Source: Psychromonas sp. SP041
Lineage (GTDB): Bacteria > Pseudomonadota > Gammaproteobacteria > Enterobacterales > Psychromonadaceae
DNA length: 64,000 nt
Assembly: GCF_000470315.2 (NCBI RefSeq)
Contig: NZ_CBRF02000017.1
Coordinates: forward strand, 1 to 64,000
Direction of reading: 5' to 3'
In this document: positions 29,330 to 42,274 of the stretch, piece by piece
Position numbering within the stretch: the first letter of the stretch is position 1
Layout of the letters: each line of letters opens with the position of its first letter
Position numbers and translations under genes: made by a program
The notes under the pieces: model-generated
Told to the model about the DNA's origin: nothing
Seen by the model: the letters and a program-made list of their open reading frames with translations, nothing else
Databases searched by the model: none

Positions 29330-29892
29330 TTTTACCGTTAGCGGTCACTTTATCTTTATCTCTAGTTTCGCTCCTTTCTTTATAATTAAAGTAATTGATT
29401 CTTATGATGTTTTAATGGAAAAGATGAATGTTATTTACCCTCATACTTTTTTAAGCCATTTTCACTATAGCGTTTAAGACACTTTTAAAATACTTGAATG
29501 TGAACTTGGTTGATGGCTAAACAATGCTTTATTACATGCAATATTATGTTATTAAACTTAATGAACAAAAATCACAAAGCATCCTCTATTTTTATAACCA
29601 CATATTTTGTGTATAGAAAATATCTGCTCTATTTTTTACCCATTGTATCGATCTAGATCTCACTTTGTTGTCTGTTTACTAAATACACTGATTTTACTTT
29701 TTAAATATACGCCTTTCATTTTCGGTCTGATCAGCACAACTCGTGTTACTAAAGCAGACTAAACAGATGAATCATTTAAGGTGTTCGATTTCATTGTTGC
29801 TAATTGAGTGAGCACCACGATTAACTTATAAATTAAATATTTAAATAAACTAACTTGTGGCAGTGTGGCTGCCTTTTGAAAAGGAAAATATT
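29330..29892. other. Intergenic region upstream of udp
   Basis: No gene seen in 560 bases. It includes a CRP-like site at 29647-29662. In enterobacteria udp is controlled by CRP and CytR, so this long leader probably carries the control of the udp-cdd unit. Confidence 0.4.
29647..29662. promoter_or_regulatory. Weak CRP-like site upstream of udp
   Basis: ATCGATCTAGATCTCA agrees with the palindrome TGTGATCTAGATCACA at 12 of 16 positions, with the right half good and the left half poor. About 230 bp before udp. Confidence 0.3.
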
Positions 29893-30651
29893 ATGTCTGA
29901 TGTATTTCATTTAGGATTAACTAAAGCGATGTTAGATGGTGCAACGTTAGCGATTGTACCGGGCGATCCTGAGCGTGTTAAGCGCATTGCTGAATTAATG
30001 GATAATGCGACGTTTTTAGCAAGCCATCGCGAATATACTATTTATCTTGCGTATATCGACGCTAAAGCAGTAGTGGTTTGTTCAACGGGTATTGGTGGTC
30101 CATCAACGTCTATTGCAGTGGAAGAACTTGCACAATTAGGTGTTCGTACTTTCTTACGTATTGGTACGACTGGTGCAATTCAACCGCATGTGAATGTGGG
30201 TGATGTGATTGTGACACAAGCATCGGTTCGTTTAGATGGAGCAAGTTTACATTTTGCACCGTTGGAATATCCTGCTGTTGCTGATTTTAATGCAACGACA
30301 GCCATGGTAGCGGCGTGTCGTGATGCGAATATCGAACCTCATGTGGGTATTACTGCATCAAGTGATACTTTTTACCCTGGCCAAGAACGCTATGATACGG
30401 TATCTGGTCGCGTTATTCGTCAATTCCAAGGTTCGATGCAAGAGTGGCAAGAACTTGGCGTACTAAATTATGAAATGGAATCATCTACCTTATTTACGAT
30501 GTGTGCATCGCAAGGATGGGCAGCCGCTTGTGTCGCTGGGGTTATTGTTAACCGTACGCAGCAAGAGATTCCAGACGAAGCAACCATGAAAAAAACAGAG
30601 TCTCACGCGATATCAATCGTTGTTGCAGCCGCTAAGAAGTTATTAAAATAA
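29893..30651 (+). CDS. udp: Uridine phosphorylase
   Basis: Splits uridine into uracil and ribose 1-phosphate. 252 residues from the ATG at 29893, which has AAAAGG upstream; a frame opening 12 codons earlier is not family sequence. [43 protein letters not shown] and [11 protein letters not shown] are NP-I family motifs of Udp type. First gene of the nucleoside region; cdd follows 46 bp later. Confidence 0.96.
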
Positions 30652-30697
30652 ATAGTAGCGATTAACATTTAAAGCTATAAAAATCAGGGAATATAAA

Positions 30698-31105
30698 ATG
30701 AAGAAGAATTACTTTAGTGAATTAAAAGTGTTATTAGATAACAGCTCTGCGCCTTACTCAGGCTTTAATGTCGCGTCTGTCGTTGTCTGTAAAGATGGAC
30801 GAGAGTTTAAAGGTGTCAATGTAGAATCTGCTGCTTACCCGACGACTATTTGTGCTGAACGTAATGCTATTTTTACTGCTGTTGCGGAAGGCATTACTAA
30901 AGGTGATATTCAAGAAGTACATATTGCTGCTCGTAACGCAGAAAAACTGTTAGTGACAGCACACCCTTGTGGATCATGTCGCCAAGTAATCGCAGAGCAA
31001 TCGATGAATGATTGCCTCGTTTATAGTTATGAATCAGAATCGGTATACACACAGAATACGATTGCAGATTTATTGCCTTTTGCTTTTTTAGGTGCTGAGC
31101 TTTAA
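30698..31105 (+). CDS. cdd: Cytidine deaminase, short tetrameric type
   Basis: Turns cytidine/deoxycytidine into uridine/deoxyuridine, feeding Udp and DeoA. 135 residues: the small tetrameric form, not the 294-residue E. coli enzyme. Zinc site: Cys and catalytic Glu in TICAERNAIF, then HPCGSCRQVI. FNVASVVVCKDG and NVESAAYP are substrate-binding stretches. AGGGA before the ATG. Confidence 0.94.
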   Translation: MKKNYFSELKVLLDNSSAPYSGFNVASVVVCKDGREFKGVNVESAAYPTTICAERNAIFTAVAEGITKGDIQEVHIAARNAEKLLVTAHPCGSCRQVIAEQSMNDCLVYSYESESVYTQNTIADLLPFAFLGAEL

Positions 31106-31210: not shown

Positions 31211-32572
31211 TTACTCTGTATAATCACTTAAATAAATTGCTTCATTTAATAACTCAGTTGCAGTTAAAGCACTCTCTATCAAGCCAAATGACATCGCAGG
31301 TGTTTTATCTCGATGAGCCTGACAAAAATTAAATAATACTCGATGAATTTCTGAAAAATTAGCAATGGTATTGAAGCTATTTAAGCTTTTATTTAAGTTT
31401 TGTTCTAAATAGGTGTAATAACGATTTAAGTGATCCGTATCATTCAAGTGAAAAGGGATGTCATTTTTTGAGTTATTAGTAATTGAAGAATAAGCACCGA
31501 GTTCAAAGCTAAACCAACGATCACCCCACCAACCTATTTTTTTATTATTAAGTACTTCTTGGTTATTCAGAAAGGGCAAATAATAATACACATCTGCTTT
31601 ACCCGTTTTAATTTCTGGATACGCTGACATGACGGCAGCTGCTCGAATGCTACTTTCTAATTCGATGTAATGACTATAACGCTGTGCTTTTTGAATAAAA
31701 GCTCTTAATAATGAAAAATGCACATAAACGAGCTTATTGGGATACAGCAAGTTGCAATGGTTAATGGCCTTTATTTCTCCAATCAATAACTTCTCAAAAT
31801 GCTTGCGATATAACGTTTGTTGATAATGCTGTTTGATTTCATTTTCTACATTATTCGCATGAGTATCTTTAATGATCGTATTTTCACAGGTGTTATAAAC
31901 ATCTCGTTCAAGTAGCTTTTGTTTAGTTAAGTTATTCGTTTGTAATAAAACATAGCCGCTTTCAGCTTCTGCACTAAGGAGTGTATAAAAACCACGTTTA
32001 TGGTGTAAATGTAAAACCTTACCTTCAGTTTGTAGTGCAATGTACTTACGTTCCATCACATCTTGCTCTTTTAAACGGCTATAATTAGTAAATAAGAGTG
32101 ACAACTTTTCAAGATAAAAGTAATAAAGGCGTGCCGATAACCCTGTTTTTCTAATCGCGACATTGATGTCTAAATTATCAATAATCGTCTGTAATACTTG
32201 TCTAATCGCATCAATATTTTTATGTCGACCTAAACTATATATACGATGACAATTATTACACTTTAAACGTTGTGTTCCAGCCCCTGTAAAACCATGTAAT
32301 TTCGCAGTGTTTTTTTCATTAAAAAAGAAATATTGATAGCAGTGTTTGCAGTGTGTAATTTTTCTAGCGAAGTGAAACGTTAGCTTTTCTTTTTGGATAT
32401 TTTCAATTAATTCGTTATTGATCCAAGGTGGATTACTTCCACAGGCCTTACATTCCACTGAAAGGTAACCTAAACGTCTACTTTTATAAACATAGTCTTC
32501 GCTTCCATTTACACCAAAATTTTTGCAACTTATTGTTTTGCAACAATTAAAGTCTTTTCTAATATCAAACAT
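31211..32572 (-). CDS. Unknown zinc-ribbon protein with helix-turn-helix-like region
   Basis: 453 residues from the ATG at 32572 (GAGGTG seven bases before). Not recognised as a named family. The first 130 residues hold paired cysteines typical of zinc ribbons: FNCCKTISCKNFG, VECKACGSNPP, ITHCKHCYQY and LKCNNCHRIYSLG. The last, preceded by GFTGAGTQR, resembles the InsA/IS1 zinc-ribbon. Next, DINVAIRKTGLSARLYYFYL looks like a helix-turn-helix. The remaining 280 residues are aromatic-rich with no known catalytic motif seen. It lies between cdd and transaldolase, divergent from the latter. A regulator or domesticated transposase-like protein is possible. Confidence 0.7.
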   Translation of the reverse strand: MFDIRKDFNCCKTISCKNFGVNGSEDYVYKSRRLGYLSVECKACGSNPPWINNELIENIQKEKLTFHFARKITHCKHCYQYFFFNEKNTAKLHGFTGAGTQRLKCNNCHRIYSLGRHKNIDAIRQVLQTIIDNLDINVAIRKTGLSARLYYFYLEKLSLLFTNYSRLKEQDVMERKYIALQTEGKVLHLHHKRGFYTLLSAEAESGYVLLQTNNLTKQKLLERDVYNTCENTIIKDTHANNVENEIKQHYQQTLYRKHFEKLLIGEIKAINHCNLLYPNKLVYVHFSLLRAFIQKAQRYSHYIELESSIRAAAVMSAYPEIKTGKADVYYYLPFLNNQEVLNNKKIGWWGDRWFSFELGAYSSITNNSKNDIPFHLNDTDHLNRYYTYLEQNLNKSLNSFNTIANFSEIHRVLFNFCQAHRDKTPAMSFGLIESALTATELLNEAIYLSDYTE

Positions 32573-32991
32573 AATGTTCACCTCTGTGTGCCACTTTAAC
32601 ATAAACAACATATTTTGTTAGCACCAGCAAATGCAAAGATTGCAATGTTAATTCTAGTGACTTAGATCTCATTTTAAGATGGTTCGAATCCCTAAAATTT
32701 GTTAATAACGAAATCGCAAGAAAGAAAGAATTAAGAAAAACAGTGACGTTGTTTACAGATAGATTTTAGAGATACAGACTAACTTTTTAACATTATCTTT
32801 ATCAATTTGAATTGAATTATACAGTCAGGTGTTTTTGAATTGTTTGGGGTGTTGACATTGGTTTTATTAAACCATCAATAAGCATTAGCTTATCCCTTTT
32901 TTTATCGTAAAAATATCTTTTATATTAAAGATAAAATGCCTTCTAAGTTGTTTCAGCTTGTTAAGGATGAATAGAGTGAAAGGAAATAAAT
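32573..32991. other. Divergent control region, zinc-ribbon gene / transaldolase
   Basis: About 420 AT-rich bases with no gene. Contains a CRP-like site at 32656-32671 and a small inverted repeat (TATCTTTTA/TAAAGATA near 32917-32936) before the transaldolase gene. Confidence 0.4.
32656..32671. promoter_or_regulatory. CRP-like site
   Basis: AGTGACTTAGATCTCA matches TGTGATCTAGATCACA at 12 of 16, with each five-base half-site at four of five. Located 85 bp before the zinc-ribbon gene and 320 bp before the transaldolase gene. Confidence 0.35.
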
Positions 32992-33942
32992 ATGCAAAAT
33001 AAATTAGAGCAGTTACGCAAAGTAACAACCGTTGTTGCAGATACCGGTGATATTGAAGCAATTAAACAATACCAACCAGAAGATGCAACAACTAATCCAT
33101 CACTTATCTTAAAAGCGGCAACGATTGAAGCCTATGCTCCCCTTATTGCTGACGCTATTGATTATGCAAAAAAACAAAGTGCAGACAAGCAACAACAAGT
33201 TGAGATTGCTTGTGACATGTTGGCTGTCAATATTGGTAAAGAGATTTTAAAAACAATACCTGGTCGCATTTCTACAGAAGTTGATGCGCGCCTTTCTTAC
33301 GACACTGATGCAAGTTTAGCGAAAGCCCGTCAATTGATAAAAATGTATAACGATGCAGGAATAAACAATGATCGTATCTTAATCAAGCTAGCGGCTACTT
33401 GGAACGGTATTCAAGCAGCTAAAGTACTTGAAAAAGAAGGGATTAACTGTAATCTCACGCTGCTTTTTTCATTCGCACAGGCACAGGCTTGTGCTGAAGC
33501 CAATGTGTTTTTAATTTCGCCATTTGTTGGCCGCATTATGGATTGGTATAAAGCGAAGCAGGGAACAGACTTTTCTGCTGCTGAAGACCCTGGTGTCTTG
33601 TCTGTAAGTAAAATTTACGACTACTACAAAGCACACGGTTATAAAACGGTTGTGATGGGCGCAAGTTTCAGAAACATAGGTGAAATTTTAGAGCTTGCTG
33701 GCTGTGACCGTTTAACGATTAGCCCACAATTATTACAAGAGCTAAGTGAGACAGAAGGGCAGGTTGAAACCAAATTATTTTCTGATGTCGATGTAAAAGC
33801 AACCCCAGCACCGTTAACGGAAGCTGAGTTTTTATGGGATCATAATCAAGACCCGATGGCCATTGAAAAATTAGCGGAAGGTATTCGCAATTTTGCTATC
33901 GATCAAAATAAATTAGAAACAATGATCATGGAAAAATTATAG
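32992..33942 (+). CDS. talB: Transaldolase
   Basis: Pentose phosphate pathway: moves a dihydroxyacetone unit between sugar phosphates. 316 residues. [12 protein letters not shown] at the N terminus, Schiff-base Lys132 in [24 protein letters not shown] and [11 protein letters not shown] are class I transaldolase signatures. Placed upstream of the NupC-type transporter and deo genes, it would help use ribose phosphate released from nucleosides (inference). Confidence 0.95.
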
Positions 33943-34099
33943 TCATTGTTTAAGAAATTTGGTTTGTTAAGGAAATAACAAACCAGCCAATATTCGAATA
34001 TCTCGGATTATACATGCCTGGGTTGGCCAGGATATTAGATGAAGATGACTGTTGGGTTATTCTTCAGTCAAATTGACATAAATGAAATGGAGTACAAAT
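33943..34099 (+). other. Possibly structured leader of nupC
   Basis: Contains two small hairpins: GGTTTGTTA/TAACAAACC (33961-33984) and CCTGG/CCAGG (34017-34031). No known riboswitch class recognised. Confidence 0.3.
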
Positions 34100-35356
34100 A
34101 TGCAAATCATCATGGGTTTAGTGGGGATTATTTCCTTACTGTTAATTGCTTTTATTTTTTCTAAGCATAAAAAATCAATTAACTACCGTACTGTTGGTGG
34201 TGCTTTCGCGATACAAGCAATTATACCTGCTTTTGTTATATTTACTCCGTGGGGCGCGTCATTTCTACAGGGTATTTCAGCTGCAGTTCAAGGTGTAATT
34301 AATAGTGCCAACGCCGGTGTTAGCTTCCTATTTGGTGGTTTAGTCTCTGGCAAAATGTTTGAAGTATTTGGCGGTGGCGGTTTTGTCTTTGCTTTTAAAG
34401 TACTCCCTATCATTATCTTCTTTGCGTCATTCATGGCTGTACTGTATTACCTAGGTATTATGCAATTCATTATCAAAATATTTGGTGGTGCATTACAAAA
34501 ATTGTTAGGCACTAGCCGTACTGAATCAATGTCTGCAGCTGCTAACGTATTTGTTGGTCAAACTGAAGCGCCATTAGTCGTTAAACCTTACATTAAACAC
34601 ATGACTCGCTCTGAGTTATTCGCTGTTATGTGTGGTGGTTTAGCTTCGGTAGCCGGTTCTGTATTAGTAGGTTATGCATCGCTAGGTGTTAGTCTTGAAT
34701 ACTTAATCGCTGCTTCTTTCATGGCTGCACCTGGTGGCTTATTAATGGCAAAAATTCTTGAGCCAGAAACTGAAGTTGCTAAAGAGCTAACAGCTGAAGA
34801 ATTAGCTGCCGATGATGACGAAGATAAACCTGTTAATGTTATCGATGCCGCGGCGTCAGGTGCTTCTTCAGGTCTTAAATTAGCGTTAAATGTTGGTGCA
34901 ATGTTAATTGCATTCATCGCATTAATTGCTTTAATTAATACTATCTTAGGTTCATTTGGTGATGTTATTGGTATTCAAGCATTAACACTGGAACAAATTT
35001 TAGGTTACTTATTTGCACCAATCGCTTTCTTAATTGGTATCCCATGGTCTGAAGCCGTTGTAGCAGGTAGTCTTTTAGGTCAAAAGCTAGTAGTGAATGA
35101 GTTTGTTGCTTACATCAACTTCATGGGTGTTAAAGATGCGTTAAGTGAACACTCTCAAGTTATTATCACTGTTGCTTTATGTGGTTTTGCTAACCTATCT
35201 TCGATGGCTATTTTATTAGGTGGTCTAGGTGTATTAGCCCCGTCACGTCGCCCTGATATTGCTCGTTTAGGTTTGAAAGCGGTAATGGCTGGTACATTAT
35301 CTAACTTAATGAGTGCAACATTAGTCGGTATCTTCTTTGCACTAAGTATTGCATAG
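34100..35356 (+). CDS. nupC: NupC-family nucleoside:cation symporter
   Basis: Inner-membrane concentrative nucleoside transporter, 418 residues. Conserved core: [49 protein letters not shown] (split here), and [18 protein letters not shown]. The ATG at 34100 has GGAG upstream and begins with a membrane helix; an in-frame ATG at 34082 is less likely. With the Tsx-type channel downstream it gives uptake across both membranes. Confidence 0.94.
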
Positions 35357-35380
35357 AGTTATATAAAAAATAGCTAAAAA

Positions 35381-35410
35381 TATTGAGGTGCTCGTAAAGA
35401 GCCCTCAATA
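35381..35410 (+). terminator. Terminator after nupC
   Basis: TATTGAGGTGCTC pairs with GAGCCCTCAATA with one bulged base and loop GTAAA; T-rich sequence follows. A second hairpin with 11-bp arms (35427-35437 with 35456-35466) lies just beyond. Confidence 0.75.
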
Positions 35411-35464
35411 ATACTTTCTTTTAGGTTTTAGCATTTACGTTTCTCGCTATAAACATAAATGCTA

Positions 35465-35590
35465 AACCCTAATTATTGAAACTTAAGTACTGAAATTGAT
35501 AGTACTAACACTTAAATACTGACCCTTAAGTTGTTCATGTTAAGTGCTGAGTTTTAAGTGATTAATATTAAGTGGTTAATATTAACTAAC
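35465..35590. repeat. Degenerate TTAAGTn repeats upstream of deoC
   Basis: Several imperfect copies of TTAAGTnnT(G)A and ACTTAAnTACTGA are spaced at roughly 10-20 bases between the nupC terminators and deoC. They may be a cluster of repressor sites or simple-sequence drift. Confidence 0.4.
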
Positions 35591-35613
35591 AATGAAATCA
35601 AAGGATTTTTAAA

Positions 35614-36387
35614 ATGAGTGATTTACAACAAGCATCGCGACAAGCAATTCATTTGATGGATTTAACTACGCTTAATGATAACGATACAGACCAAAAAGTC
35701 ATTGAATTATGTCAGCAAGCAAATAGCGCTGCAGGCTATACCGCCGCTGTTTGTATTTACCCTCGCTTTATTCCTATCGCGCGTAAAACATTAAAAGCAC
35801 AAAGCACAGCGGATATTAAAATCGCAACAGTGACCAATTTTCCACACGGTAATGATGATATTGAAATTGCTGTTGCTGAAACCAAAGCGGCTGTTGCTTA
35901 TGGCGCAGACGAAGTTGATTTAGTTTTTCCATACCGTGCACTGATTGCTGGTAATGCAACTGTCGGTGAAGAGATGGTTAAAGCTTGCCGTGAAGTTTGT
36001 GGCAAAGAAGTCACATTAAAAGTGATCATCGAAACGGGCGAATTAAAAACACCTGAGTTGATTGAACAAGCAAGCTTGATCTGTATTGAAGCGGGTGCTG
36101 ATTTTATTAAAACATCAACAGGAAAAGTACCTGTTAATGCAACATTAGAAGCAACTGAAGTGATGATTGGCGCGATTAAGAAGTCGGGCAAAAACGTTGG
36201 TTTTAAAGCCGCTGGTGGTGTGAAAAATGCACAAACAGCAAATGATTATATGCAGCTTGCTCGTGACATTATGGGCGATGATTGGGTTAATGCCGAACAT
36301 TTCCGTTTTGGCGCTTCAAGTTTGTTAGCAAGCTTATTATCTGAGCTTAATTTAGCTGGCAAACCTGTTGAGACAGGAGGTTACTAA
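35614..36387 (+). CDS. deoC: Deoxyribose-phosphate aldolase
   Basis: Cleaves deoxyribose 5-phosphate to acetaldehyde and glyceraldehyde 3-phosphate. 257 residues. [27 protein letters not shown], Schiff-base Lys166 in DFIKTSTGK and proton-relay Lys198 in VGFKAAGGV. The stop overlaps the deoB start (TAATG), so deoC, deoB and deoD are one operon. Confidence 0.97.
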
Positions 36388-37634
36388 TGAAACGTACTAT
36401 TTTTTTATTACTTGATTCTTTAGGCATAGGCGCAAGCCATGATGCTGACAAATTTGAAGGTAGCTTAGCAGACGGCACCGTATTTAATGATGTTGGCGCT
36501 AATACTTTTGGTAGCATTGCAAAACTTTGTGCTGCAGGTGAAGCTGATATCGGACGTAAAGGTCCTTTGTTTATTCCTAATTTAACTAAACTGGGGCTAG
36601 CACATGCTTGCCAAGGCAGTTCAGGTGAGTTCCCGATGGGATTGGATGAATCTATTGTACCCATCTCAGCTTATGGTCATGCTCAAGAGATCTCTACTGG
36701 TAAAGATACACCAAGTGGACATTGGGAAATTACAGGAGCACCTGTTTTATATGAATGGGGCTACTTTAAATCAAAGCAAAACAGTTTCCCGCAAGAATTG
36801 TTGGATGCGATTGTTGAACGTTCAGGTATTGCTGGCTATTTAGGTAACTGTCATTCATCAGGTACGGTTATTTTAGACGAGCTTGGTGAAGAACATATCA
36901 AGACAGGTAAGCCTATATTCTACACATCAAGTGACAGTGTTTTTCAGATTGCTTGTCATGAAGAAACGTATGGTTTAGATCGCTTATATGAACTATGTGA
37001 AATTGCCCGTGAATTATTAGAACCTTACAATATTGGCCGTGTTATTGCGCGTCCATTCTCAGGTGATAAAGCAGGTGATTTTGCTCGTACAGGTAATCGT
37101 CATGATTACTCAGTATTACCGCCTTCTGAAACATTACTTGATCGCATGAAAAATGCCGGTGGAGAAGTGGTTAGTATCGGTAAAATCTCTGACATATTTG
37201 CAGCGCAAGGTATTACGCAAGCCATTAAAGCGAATGGTCTTGAAGCATTGTTCGATGCAACGTTACAGTCGTTAAAAGAGGCGAAAAAAGAAACCATTAT
37301 TTTTACAAACTTTGTAAATTTTGATGCTGATTTTGGTCATCGACGCAACGTGGCAGGCTATGCCGCTGCACTTGAATATTTTGATACACGTTTGCCGGAA
37401 ATGCTTGAGTTAATGGATAAAGATGACTTATTAGTATTATCGGCGGATCACGGATGTGATCCTACATGGCCTGGTTCAGACCATACTCGTGAACATATTC
37501 CGGTTATTTTCTACGGAGAAAATGTCCCAGCAGGTTCGGTAGGACTTCGCGATACGTTTGCTGATATCGGTCAAACCATTGCGGAATACCACCAGTTACC
37601 TGATCTTGAATACGGTAAAAGTATTTTTAAATAA
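36387..37634 (+). CDS. deoB: Phosphopentomutase
   Basis: Interconverts (deoxy)ribose 1- and 5-phosphates, linking the phosphorylases to DeoC and the pentose pathway. 415 residues, a few more than in E. coli. Metal-binding [11 protein letters not shown], phosphorylated Thr in [24 protein letters not shown] and [19 protein letters not shown] are alkaline-phosphatase-superfamily motifs of this enzyme. Confidence 0.97.
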
Positions 37635-37652
37635 AATTTTGGAGAAATAAAG

Positions 37653-38363
37653 ATGGCAACACCACATATTAACGCAGTCGATGGCGCATTTGCAGAAACA
37701 GTATTAATGCCTGGCGACCCACTACGCGCAAAGTACATTGCAGACAACTTTTTAGAAGATGTAGTGCAAGTAACTGATGTACGTAACATGTTAGGTTTTA
37801 CTGGTACTTACAAAGGTAAGAAAATATCAGTAATGGGAAGTGGTATGGGCATTCCTTCTTGCTCAATTTATGCAACGGAACTGATTAAAGATTACGGCGT
37901 TAAAAGCATTATCCGTGTGGGTAGTTGTGGCGCGGTTAGTCCTGATATCAAAGTGCGTGATGTGATCATCGGTATGGGTGCTTCAACAGACTCAAAAGCA
38001 AATCGTATTCGTTTTGCTAACCATGATTTCGCGGCTATCGCGAGTTACGAGCTATTAGAAAAAGCAGTAAACGCAGCACGAGCTCATGGTATTAAAGCAC
38101 AAGTAGGGAATATATTTTCTGCTGATACTTTCTATACGCCTGAGCCACAAGTATTCGACACACTAGAAAAATACAATATTTTAGGTGTAGAAATGGAAGC
38201 CGCTGGTTTATATGGTGTTGCTGCTGAATATGGTGCAAAAGCGTTATGTATTTTGACGGTATCGGATCATATCCGTACTGGCGAACAACTATCTTCTGAT
38301 GAGCGTCAAACAAGCTTTAATGAGATGGTATTAATCGCACTTGATTCTGTAGTTGCAGAATAA
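37653..38363 (+). CDS. deoD: Purine nucleoside phosphorylase
   Basis: Hexameric bacterial PNP: splits purine (deoxy)nucleosides. 236 residues. [43 protein letters not shown] and [13 protein letters not shown] are family signatures. It follows deoB by 18 bp with GGAG before the ATG. Imperfect hairpin at 38380-38417 follows. Confidence 0.97.
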
Positions 38364-38379
38364 AAGAGTGTGAAAAAGA

Positions 38380-38417
38380 CCTGACGTTGAAGTTTATTTT
38401 ATAGCATTAATGTCAGG
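38380..38417 (+). terminator. Stem-loop after deoD
   Basis: CCTGACGTT pairs with AATGTCAGG (one G-U) across a 20-base loop; followed by CATTTTAT. A moderate terminator. Confidence 0.5.
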
Positions 38418-38541
38418 CATTTTATATTCACTACATAGTGTGCGCGATAGTGAGTATAAAATATTATTATTGAGCTTTGGAAAAACTTTAGCATTAGAAA
38501 TTATCATTTAACATTTTTTACTTTTAAAAAGGAATTTAACA

Positions 38542-39375
38542 ATGAAAAAAACATTATTAGCACTTGGGCTCGCTGTAACAGCTGCAATGCCTGCCTTTGC
38601 AGCCGATTACACGGATGGTGACACGCACAAGAATGATTATAACTGGCTACAAGGTAACTTGATGTATGCCGTGAATGAATTGCCAGGTGAGTCAAATCAT
38701 GATTACTTAGAACTTGAATTTGGCGGACGTTCTGGGATTTTAGATTACTATGGTTATGCTGATGTGTTTAACTTAGCAAGCAGTGATTCTTCAGATAAAG
38801 CTGATTCGGAAAAAATATTTATTAAATTTGCTCCTCGTATATCGCTTGATGGATTAACCGGTACAGATTTATCTTTTGGTCCTGTTCAAGAACTTTATTT
38901 TGCAACTTTATTTAATTGGGGTGGTGGTGGATCTACTGTTTTTGATGCAACTGGTAATGCTATTGAAACTGAAACAGTGAATAACTCGTTTTGGGGTATT
39001 GGTTCTGATGTAATGGTGCCATGGTTAGGTAAAGTAGGTTTAAATTTTTATGCCCTTTACGATTTAAATGAGAAAGATTGGGATGGTTTCCAAGTTTCTA
39101 CTAACTGGTTTAAACCTTTTTACTTCTTCGAAAATGGTTCGTTCTTTTCGTACCAAGGTTATATCGATTATCAATTTGGTGTAGATGATGATTTTGCTGC
39201 ACTTAAAACGGATAACGGTGGTGTTTGGTACAATGGTATTTACTGGCATTCAGAAAACTTTGCTGTAGGTTACGGATTAAAAGCGTTTAAAGATGTTTAC
39301 GGTCTGAGAGATGGTGGTTTTGCAGGTAAAACAACTGGCTTGGGTCATTACTTTGCTGTGACTTACAAGTTCTAA
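38542..39375 (+). CDS. tsx: Nucleoside-specific outer membrane channel, Tsx/OmpK family
   Basis: 277 residues: signal peptide cleaved after AFA (about residue 20), then a beta barrel ending in aromatic Phe (YFAVTYKF). YNWLQGNLMYAVNE, LELEFGGRSG and LDYYGYADVFNL are typical of Tsx/OmpK channels. Position between deoD and deoA supports nucleoside diffusion. AAAGGA lies before the ATG. Confidence 0.92.
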   Translation: MKKTLLALGLAVTAAMPAFAADYTDGDTHKNDYNWLQGNLMYAVNELPGESNHDYLELEFGGRSGILDYYGYADVFNLASSDSSDKADSEKIFIKFAPRISLDGLTGTDLSFGPVQELYFATLFNWGGGGSTVFDATGNAIETETVNNSFWGIGSDVMVPWLGKVGLNFYALYDLNEKDWDGFQVSTNWFKPFYFFENGSFFSYQGYIDYQFGVDDDFAALKTDNGGVWYNGIYWHSENFAVGYGLKAFKDVYGLRDGGFAGKTTGLGHYFAVTYKF

Positions 39376-39423
39376 AAATAGCGACACCTAATCACATTCA
39401 CCTTATCAGTGGTTAGTCTAAAA

Positions 39424-39453
39424 AACTTGCAGGATAATTCTTTATCCTGCAAG
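39424..39453 (+). terminator. Stem-loop after tsx
   Basis: A 13-bp perfect stem ACTTGCAGGATAA with 39441-39453, loop TTCT. No long T run follows. Confidence 0.65.
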
Positions 39454-39559
39454 TCATCTTACCTATAACAACTCACACTCTCTTGAGTTATTTGCAAATG
39501 CATTGTGTATTATTTGCAAATCGCTTAATCAAATACCTATCTATTTTCGGAGTTTGTAT

Positions 39560-40900
39560 ATGATCCTAGTACCCCAAGAAATCATCCGCCATAAACGTGA
39601 TGGAAAAGTATTAACTAATCAAGAAATTAACTTCTTCATTCAAGGTATTACTGATAATAGTATCAGTGAAAGCCAAATCGCTGCCTTTGCGATGGCTATT
39701 TACTTTCAAGACATGAATATGAATGAACGAGTCGCTTTAGCGTCTGCAATGCGCGACTCTGGTGAAGTCTTAGATTGGTCTTCATTGAATTTAAATGGTC
39801 CTATTGTCGATAAACATTCAACGGGTGGTGTCGGGGATGTGACCTCTTTAATGCTCGGACCAATGGTTGCTGCTTGTGGCGGTTATGTACCGATGATCTC
39901 TGGTCGTGGCTTAGGCCATACGGGAGGCACACTAGATAAATTAGATGCTATCCCTGGTTATCAAACTACTGTGACTAACCAACATTTTAGAGACGTTGTC
40001 AAAACAACGGGTGTGGCGATTATAGGGCAAAGTGCCAACTTAGCACCTGCAGACAAGCGCTTTTATGCCACTCGTGATATTACTGCAACCGTTGAATCAA
40101 TCCCGCTAATCACAGCTTCTATTTTATCTAAAAAACTAGCAGCAGGGTTAGATGCGTTAGTCATGGATGTCAAAGCGGGTAGCGGTGCTTTTATGCCCAC
40201 TTATGAACAATCACAACAACTTGCTAATAGCATTGTTGCCGTCGCAAATGGTGCTGGCTGTAAAACCTCTGCTTTAATTACTAATATGGATCAAGTGCTA
40301 GCAAGTAGTGCAGGTAACGCTGTTGAAGTAAGAGAAGCGGTTCAATTCTTAACAGGTGAGTACGTTAATCCAAGATTACATGAAGTCACTATGTCGCTTT
40401 GTGCTGAAATGTTGGTATCAGCAAATCTAGTTGACAATACACAACAAGCATATATAAAGTTACAAGCTGTATTGGGTAACGGTAAAGCTGCTGAGCTATT
40501 TGGGAAAATGGTATCAGGTCTTGGTGGTCCAACTGATTTCGTTGAAAATTACGATGATCATTTGGTTAAGTCTGCCATTATTAGACCTATCTACAGCACA
40601 CAAAGTGGTTATGTCAGTGCAATTGATGCGCGTGAGGTTGGTATGTCTGTCGTTAATATGGGCGGCGGACGTCGTGTCGCGACTGATGCTATCGACTTTG
40701 CGGTAGGCTTAAGCGAGCTAATTAGTATTGGCGATAAGATCGATGCACAAACACCTATTGCGATGGTCCATGCTCAAACAGAGCAGCAATTTATGGAAAC
40801 GCAAAAGAATGTCTTAAATGCTATCCATTGTGCAGATAAGAAAGTGGCTATTGAGCCACAAGTCTACGAAGTTATTCGTGGTAACAATGTTGAATATTAA
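39560..40900 (+). CDS. deoA: Thymidine phosphorylase
   Basis: Splits thymidine/deoxyuridine to base and deoxyribose 1-phosphate. 446 residues from the ATG at 39560 (GGAG upstream; a frame opens 19 codons earlier). [17 protein letters not shown] (phosphate site), [20 protein letters not shown] and [12 protein letters not shown]. Separated from deoC-B-D by the tsx gene, unlike deoCABD of E. coli. Confidence 0.97.
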
Positions 40901-41272
40901 AAATAGCACTAGACTATAACTCGTTGTACCTAGTATATCCAAGTGCACCCAGTGAGTTACAACTCGTTAAGTTATAACTCACTAAGCTATCCCTGAATTA
41001 TTAAAAACAAGGCTATTTTCCTGCCTTTACTAAAAATGTTTTTGGCGATAGATGAATAGTTGAACTTAAATAATAAACGACTAATAACAACATATTATGT
41101 TAACTAGCTTAAAATATTTTTTAAATGTAGATTTATTAAAGATTTGCTAGTAACAAAAAATAACCACACTCTTTATACTAGTTGAATTCAAGCTACCTTA
41201 TTTTGTAACCTCGGAAATTACATTTTAAGGTGGCTTGAGTTCCATTAGAGTTTCAATACAAAGGAATAAAAA
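40901..41272. other. Intergenic region deoA-add with two inverted repeats
   Basis: No gene. GTGAGTTACAA (40952-40962) pairs with 40972-40982, a likely end of the deoA transcript. A larger imperfect hairpin lies at 41184-41242. No purine riboswitch core was found. Confidence 0.5.
41184..41242 (+). promoter_or_regulatory. Large imperfect hairpin in the add leader
   Basis: Two 25-base arms (41184-41208 and 41218-41242) with 20 positions paired plus G-U pairs, loop CCTCGGAAA, ending 30 bases before the add ATG. It could be an RNA control element, a protein operator or a small mobile repeat. Confidence 0.5.
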
Positions 41273-42274
41273 ATGATCACTAAAAATCTACCTCTAACTG
41301 ATATACATCGACATTTAGATGGCAATATTCGTATTGAAACTATTTTACAATTGGGTCAAAAATTTAATCTAACATTACCTGCTACTAACATTGAAACATT
41401 GCGTCCATTTGTACAGGTCATTGAAACTGAACCAAATTTGGTGGCTTTTTTATCTAAATTAGACTGGGGTGTTGCTGTTTTAGGTGACTTAGATGCTTGT
41501 TATCAAGTGGCTTATGAAAATGTTGAAGATGCTAAAAATGCTCGCATTGATTATACGGAACTGCGTTTCTCTCCGTATTACATGGCGTTGAAGCATAACT
41601 TACCTGTTCAGGGCGTTGTTGAAGCGGTTGTCGCCGGCGTTGCTGCTGGTAGTAAAGACTTTAACGTTAAAACTAATTTAATCGGTATTATGAGCCGTTC
41701 TTACGGTACAGAAGCATGCCAAATTGAATTAGATGGGCTGCTTAGTCAAAAAGATAAATTGGTTGCTATCGATTTAGCGGGAGACGAATTAGGAAAACCT
41801 GGTGACTTATTTGTTAATCACTTTAAACAAGTACGTGATGCTGGCTTACGTGTAACAGTGCATGCAGGTGAAGCTGCTGGACCTGAAAGTATATGGCAGG
41901 CAATTCAATCATTGGGTGCTGAGCGTATTGGTCACGGTGTAAAAGCAATCGAAGATCTTAAATTAATGGATTATCTTGTAGCAAACAATATTGGTATTGA
42001 GTCTTGTATTACTTCGAATATACAAACCAGTACCATTGCTGATATTACTCAACACCCTATTAAGACATTCTTAAACCACGGTGTGATGGCATCACTTAAT
42101 ACTGATGACCCAGCAGTAGAAGGGATTGAGTTACCTTTCGAGTATGAAGTTGCCGCGCCTAAAGCAGGTTTGTCTCTTGAGCAAATAAAACAAACACAAA
42201 TTAATGGCTTAGACATCGCATTCTTATCAGCAGCTGAAAAACAAGCTTTGCGTGATATTGCAGCGAAACGTTAA
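41273..42274 (+). CDS. add: Adenosine deaminase
   Basis: Turns adenosine/deoxyadenosine to (deoxy)inosine, a DeoD substrate. 333 residues, E. coli length. Zinc ligands in [11 protein letters not shown], catalytic [18 protein letters not shown] and [14 protein letters not shown] lies before the ATG. It closes the nucleoside cluster. Confidence 0.97.

Follow-up and report, generated by a model that had tools for sequence, protein, structure and literature searches.

Nucleosides and DNA are food for marine and enteric bacteria, and the window analysed here, a 64-kb stretch of Psychromonas DNA, contains an island of nucleoside genes with one unrecognised gene in its midst. What is this gene, termed X, and what does it do there? 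X (31211-32572, minus strand) is the sole minus-strand gene among the plus-strand nucleoside genes of the island. On one side of it lie a udp-like nucleoside phosphorylase gene and cdd (29857-31105, plus strand, identified with Pfam), which form a putative target operon. On the other side, divergent from X, are further putative targets: tal, nupC, deoC, deoB, deoD, tsx and a deoA-like gene named by sequence resemblance alone (32992-40900, plus strand, identified with Pfam and clusters), followed by the adenosine deaminase gene add (41273-42274, plus strand). The strand of X and its divergence from tal were thus as originally predicted. The open reading frame holding X spans 31211-32611 on the minus strand (466 aa), and alignment with homologues placed the start codon at 32572, the position given earlier, yielding a protein of 453 aa with two zinc ribbons, a helix-turn-helix (HTH) and a degenerate transposase domain.

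X is present as a single copy in its genome, and the named proteins closest to it are from Psychromonas. None of the curated family libraries covered X in full length, no known regulator family matched over its length, and no curated family matched its C-terminal 280 residues. Public annotations of its relatives read 'hypothetical', 'cytoplasmic protein' or 'lactate dehydrogenase'. Five queries against viral contigs returned no relative of X.

The N-terminal half carries four cysteine pairs, which the original prediction had assigned to two zinc ribbons. Ribbon 1 (C11-x4-C16 and C41-x2-C44; 32441-32542, minus strand) and ribbon 2 (C75-x2-C78 and C105-x2-C108; 32249-32350, minus strand) are both upheld by conservation, each of the eight cysteines being kept in 54-56 of 56 dereplicated homologues; those of ribbon 1 are kept in all 56 and also in nearly all of the mobile transposases described below. 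The second ribbon had been likened to that of IS1. The NCBIfam model NF050000 (IS1/IS1595 zinc-binding) hit X itself at an E value of 0.03 and 14.8 bits, below its cut-off of 28 bits, and 52 of the 56 relatives matched it at E ≤ 1 (best 1e-10); the ribbon appears to resemble those of IS1/IS1595. Residues 71-116 also gave a weak fold match to zinc ribbons. The AlphaFold model of full-length X was poor and usable for ribbon 2 and the HTH only. Its best-modelled part (pLDDT ~73-87 over residues 121-160) falls within a predicted HTH at residues ~118-165 (32078-32221, minus strand), which matched LuxR/FixJ-type HTHs at low Z (4.9 at most); the model thus agrees with the helix-turn-helix-like stretch expected after the ribbons. 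The modelled HTH and the ribbons would be the DNA-binding domains of X. The HTH is absent from the enterobacterial members of the family.

The origin of X was indicated by its C-terminal domain (31214-32047, minus strand). Profiles of this domain and of the C-terminal domain of mobile transposases, built separately, aligned in hhalign with a probability of 99.8% (E = 8.5e-29; reversed control, 0.4%). Both the eight-cysteine double ribbon and the homologous C-terminal domain of dfrG-type transposases are present in X, and the shared tail of its domain reads 'fNfc....TPA..fGl'. The mobile proteins came to light as distant full-length relatives (L162 and L196-L202), which are mostly plasmid-borne and have the architecture of X plus extra length. 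At least six of them (L162, L196, L197, L198, L200 and L201) are the transposases of mobile elements bounded by terminal inverted repeats; for L162, L197, L198, L200 and L201, these repeats have matching flanks. Four dfrG elements were compared; they share a 3.28-kb unit with identical inverted repeats, flanked at each site by a different 8-bp target duplication, and a plasmid with the uninterrupted target site of the dfrG element exists. The repeats of the dfrG transposon (L196 4332-7608, L220, L221 and L222, on plasmids of Enterococcus, Listeria and Staphylococcus) are ~28 bp long. By eye, this transposon has entered a terminator-like hairpin at its loop in all four sites compared, and the L162 and L197 elements likewise lie within terminator-like hairpins.

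Three acidic residues, D222, D368 and E514 in L162 numbering, were invariant in eight mobile proteins. In the nucleoside-linked proteins, which form one clade (support 0.998), D222 was kept in 5 of 56 and D368 in 2 of 56, while E514 was aligned in 16 of 56 in a region where the alignment is uncertain. The motif GWWxDRW (residues 347-353; 31514-31534, minus strand) is kept in most of the clade. The homology to proteins encoded between terminal repeats and target duplications, together with the loss of the two aspartates, likely cutting residues, supports the derivation of X from a transposase, as had been proposed. Terminal inverted repeats were looked for around X and none were found, so X is not part of an active insertion sequence bounded by such repeats. 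The conserved acids and the transposon anatomy suggest a possible DDE/RNase H fold for the C-terminal domain; AlphaFold gave the domain alone a pLDDT of 37, too low to fix its fold. Structure comparison (VIA-align) gave matches of low Z, so that a missing fold match carries no weight. The IS1595 DDE domain PF12762 had no Pfam match in X and reached 0.9% in hhalign. At one locus (L104, G006:C1:3538421-3538874), a full X gene is followed by two tandem copies of its C-terminal 65 residues.

A lack of conserved neighbours, named originally as a refutation, is decisively contradicted. Nucleoside genes lie within four ORFs of X in 79 of 81 loci of the nucleoside clade, and the two exceptional loci, L101 and L167, are at contig ends. 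Several unrelated gene arrangements occur across families. X and the tal/nupC/deo genes diverge from each other in Psychromonas and in the related family f10, which we take from its gene order to be Shewanella-like. X lies downstream of deoD in Vibrionaceae (f21, so called as its members group with named Photobacterium/Salinivibrio records), and outside this family its orientation is mostly divergent. In Enterobacteriaceae (f18, whose members group with named Citrobacter/Salmonella records) and in a second Vibrio-type paralogue, X adjoins a 5'-nucleotidase gene; in E. coli it adjoins genes for a Tsx-type channel and a sulfatase-family protein. The family extends to Vibrio, E. coli, Salmonella, Klebsiella and others; among complete E. 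coli genomes, 1263 of 5426 (~23%) hold a relative. At L097, L099, L112, L115 and L116, X and the nucleoside genes are separated by a small XapX-like ORF, which was also seen at L043.

The X promoters of Psychromonas and f10 contain a motif, CAACANATTTTGTTA, a 15-bp imperfect inverted repeat with the consensus CAACA-N-ATTTTGTTA, which in most divergent X promoters of both groups is found in a single orientation. The X promoters of L110, L113 and L114 had no good site. The three top-scoring sites of the window, by a matrix trained on 24 X promoters from Psychromonas and f10, are candidate operators, all on the plus strand: CAACATATTTTGTTA in the X-tal intergenic region (32606-32620), 33 bp before the start codon of X; CCACATATTTTGTGT upstream of the udp-like gene (29598-29612); and CAACATATTATGTTA upstream of add (41088-41102). 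No Vibrionaceae were used in training, and in this held-out family (26 loci, 438 kb) 31 of 32 matrix sites fell within 500 bp upstream of deoD; 25 of the 26 loci had a predicted site, and the reversed matrix gave two sites. Any likeness, by eye, between the transposon inverted repeats and the candidate operator was too weak to claim.

The motif was absent from enterobacterial X promoters. In that group (L041, L044, L045 and L151-L154), the proteins are HTH-less and another inverted repeat, CAACGACC-N8-TCGTTGG, lies ~30 bp before X. The motif evidence does not extend to the enterobacterial members because they have lost the HTH and carry this different repeat.

A pattern search of the 4.8-Mb Psychromonas genome returned four sites (reversed pattern, two), three of them in the island. 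The sole site outside (L266, G000:C43:34820) is ~150 bp before a chemoreceptor (MCP) gene, a position that hints at a regulon taking in chemotaxis. Further intergenic sites in X-carrying genomes precede add, cdd and genes for 5'-nucleotidases, MCPs, a DNA/RNA endonuclease of the non-specific type and an endonuclease I that bears PKD domains. Some precede genes for GGDEF proteins or genes with no evident connection, and some exact hits fall inside coding sequences or before unrelated genes. We read the intergenic sites as marking a regulon for nucleic-acid scavenging with an uncertain fringe. A site directly upstream is missing from many nupC genes; nupC is rarely a direct target in X-carrying genomes, so that the lack of a site at its orthologues in four Vibrionaceae without X carries no information.

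The comparison of genomes with and without X covered 394 members of the order. In the 68 X-carrying genomes, the exact pattern occurred 106 times against 44 for the reversed controls; in the 326 genomes without X, it occurred 83 times against 100, and the exact hits checked there (L223, L224 and L225) were all inside unrelated ORFs. The two sets differ in lineage, which could account for part of the excess; the comparison within Psychromonas alone controls for lineage. In eight of the nine Psychromonas genomes with X, the add promoter has the site 125-189 bp upstream, with scores of 17-27, and in the ninth it has a weak version (7.8). In the three without X, the best scores were -3.3 to -7.5; one of them, G012, has a completeness of 51%, which leaves its lack of X uncertain. 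Co-occurrence thus links the motif to X, a tie that falls short of proof that X binds it.

The original prediction had named X a possible regulator for the cluster, and the conserved neighbourhood and the operator-like motif that tracks the gene support this role without proving it. We consider X likely to be a transcription factor, domesticated from a transposase, that serves the scavenging of nucleosides and nucleic acids and is predicted from sequence to bind the motif. Another explanation is that the motif belongs to a different transcription factor and that X is a co-regulator, a sensor or an accessory protein of the pathway. CRP-like sites are visible by eye in many of the promoters, enterobacterial X proteins exist without HTH and motif, and the binding of the motif by X is a prediction. 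However, no second regulator gene recurs beside X across families, the best sites are held by X's own promoter, the motif excess is limited to genomes with X, and Psychromonas genomes without X lack the add site. We therefore regard this explanation as improbable, though the strongest of the alternatives considered.

A catalytic role for X in nucleic-acid catabolism, as an enzyme or nuclease instead of a regulator, is considerably less probable still. The strict linkage of X to catabolic genes, the conservation of H285, R256, R310 and GWWxDRW, and an ancestor that was a DNA-cutting enzyme would all fit such a role, but the two aspartates invariant in transposases are lost, the orientation is mostly divergent outside Vibrionaceae, and ribbons, HTH and motif co-occurrence speak against it. 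That X is a still-mobile insertion sequence sitting here by chance has a negligible probability despite its homology to mobile-element transposases, given its single copy, the lost acids, the lack of flanking inverted repeats, the like neighbours across families and the five viral queries that found no relative.

As a transcription factor, X would have its origin in a transposase encoded by a zinc-ribbon insertion element, having lost acidic residues invariant in transposases while retaining the ribbons, the C-terminal domain and, in most members, the HTH. In Psychromonas, Vibrionaceae and the Shewanella-like family, X most likely binds CAACA-N-ATTTTGTTA before its own gene and its putative targets, probably as a dimer on the imperfect inverted repeat and through the HTH and/or the ribbons. 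Its putative target genes are the deo genes, udp-cdd, add and 5'-nucleotidase genes and, in some genomes, those for secreted nucleases and chemoreceptors. X would probably repress its own gene via the candidate site 33 bp before its start codon. The effector is probably a nucleoside-derived sugar phosphate, perhaps contacting the conserved arginines R256 and R310, and we infer that a repressor released by such a compound is more likely than an activator. With less confidence, we lean towards a wider reading in which a single origin from a zinc-ribbon transposase, followed by the loss of transposition, gave rise to this previously unrecognised family of bacterial transcription factors, now the dedicated regulator of the route from extracellular DNA to central metabolism in Psychromonas, Vibrionaceae and the Shewanella-like family, with diverged branches in Enterobacteriaceae; the chain covered by this reading comprises secreted nucleases, 5'-nucleotidases, uptake, the deo genes and chemoreceptors.

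If these predictions are true, the uncharacterised X would be the missing regulator in many genomes and, among bacteria, a rare example of a transposase converted into a transcription factor while mobile relatives survive. The path from binding transposon ends to binding operators would be traceable because such relatives still exist. Searches by topic and by the locus tags that we assume for X (VCA0054 and SO1215) found no paper describing X within the literature searchable, and X is probably a kind of genetic switch, so far undescribed, for feeding on the building blocks of DNA and RNA.

Among known systems, the unclassified transposase of dfrG-carrying transposons and related insertion elements ('insertion element protein', ~580-650 aa) resembles X in its double ribbon, in the region with the HTH and in the C-terminal domain with its tail 'YNfc...TPAmRlGl', whereas X is shorter, is without D222, D368 and repeats, and is fixed beside nucleoside genes. 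Transposases of IS1/IS1595 (NF050000, NF033558 and PF12762) resemble X in the second ribbon and the HTH region, but their C-terminal domain has no detectable match to that of X (the hhalign value given above). Plant FHY3/FAR1 and bacterial TldR are domesticated transposon proteins that act as regulators; like X, they represent mobile-element proteins turned to regulation, but they come from other transposon families, and TldR is RNA-guided. DeoR and CytR are the regulators of the deo genes in E. coli. The target genes proposed for X are common with theirs, while both the proteins and their operators differ from X and its motif. In Shewanella, DeoR* was inferred to be a regulator of nucleoside use (PMC3223726); it belongs to the Crp family and is not a zinc-ribbon protein, but the pathway predicted for it is the same as that for X.
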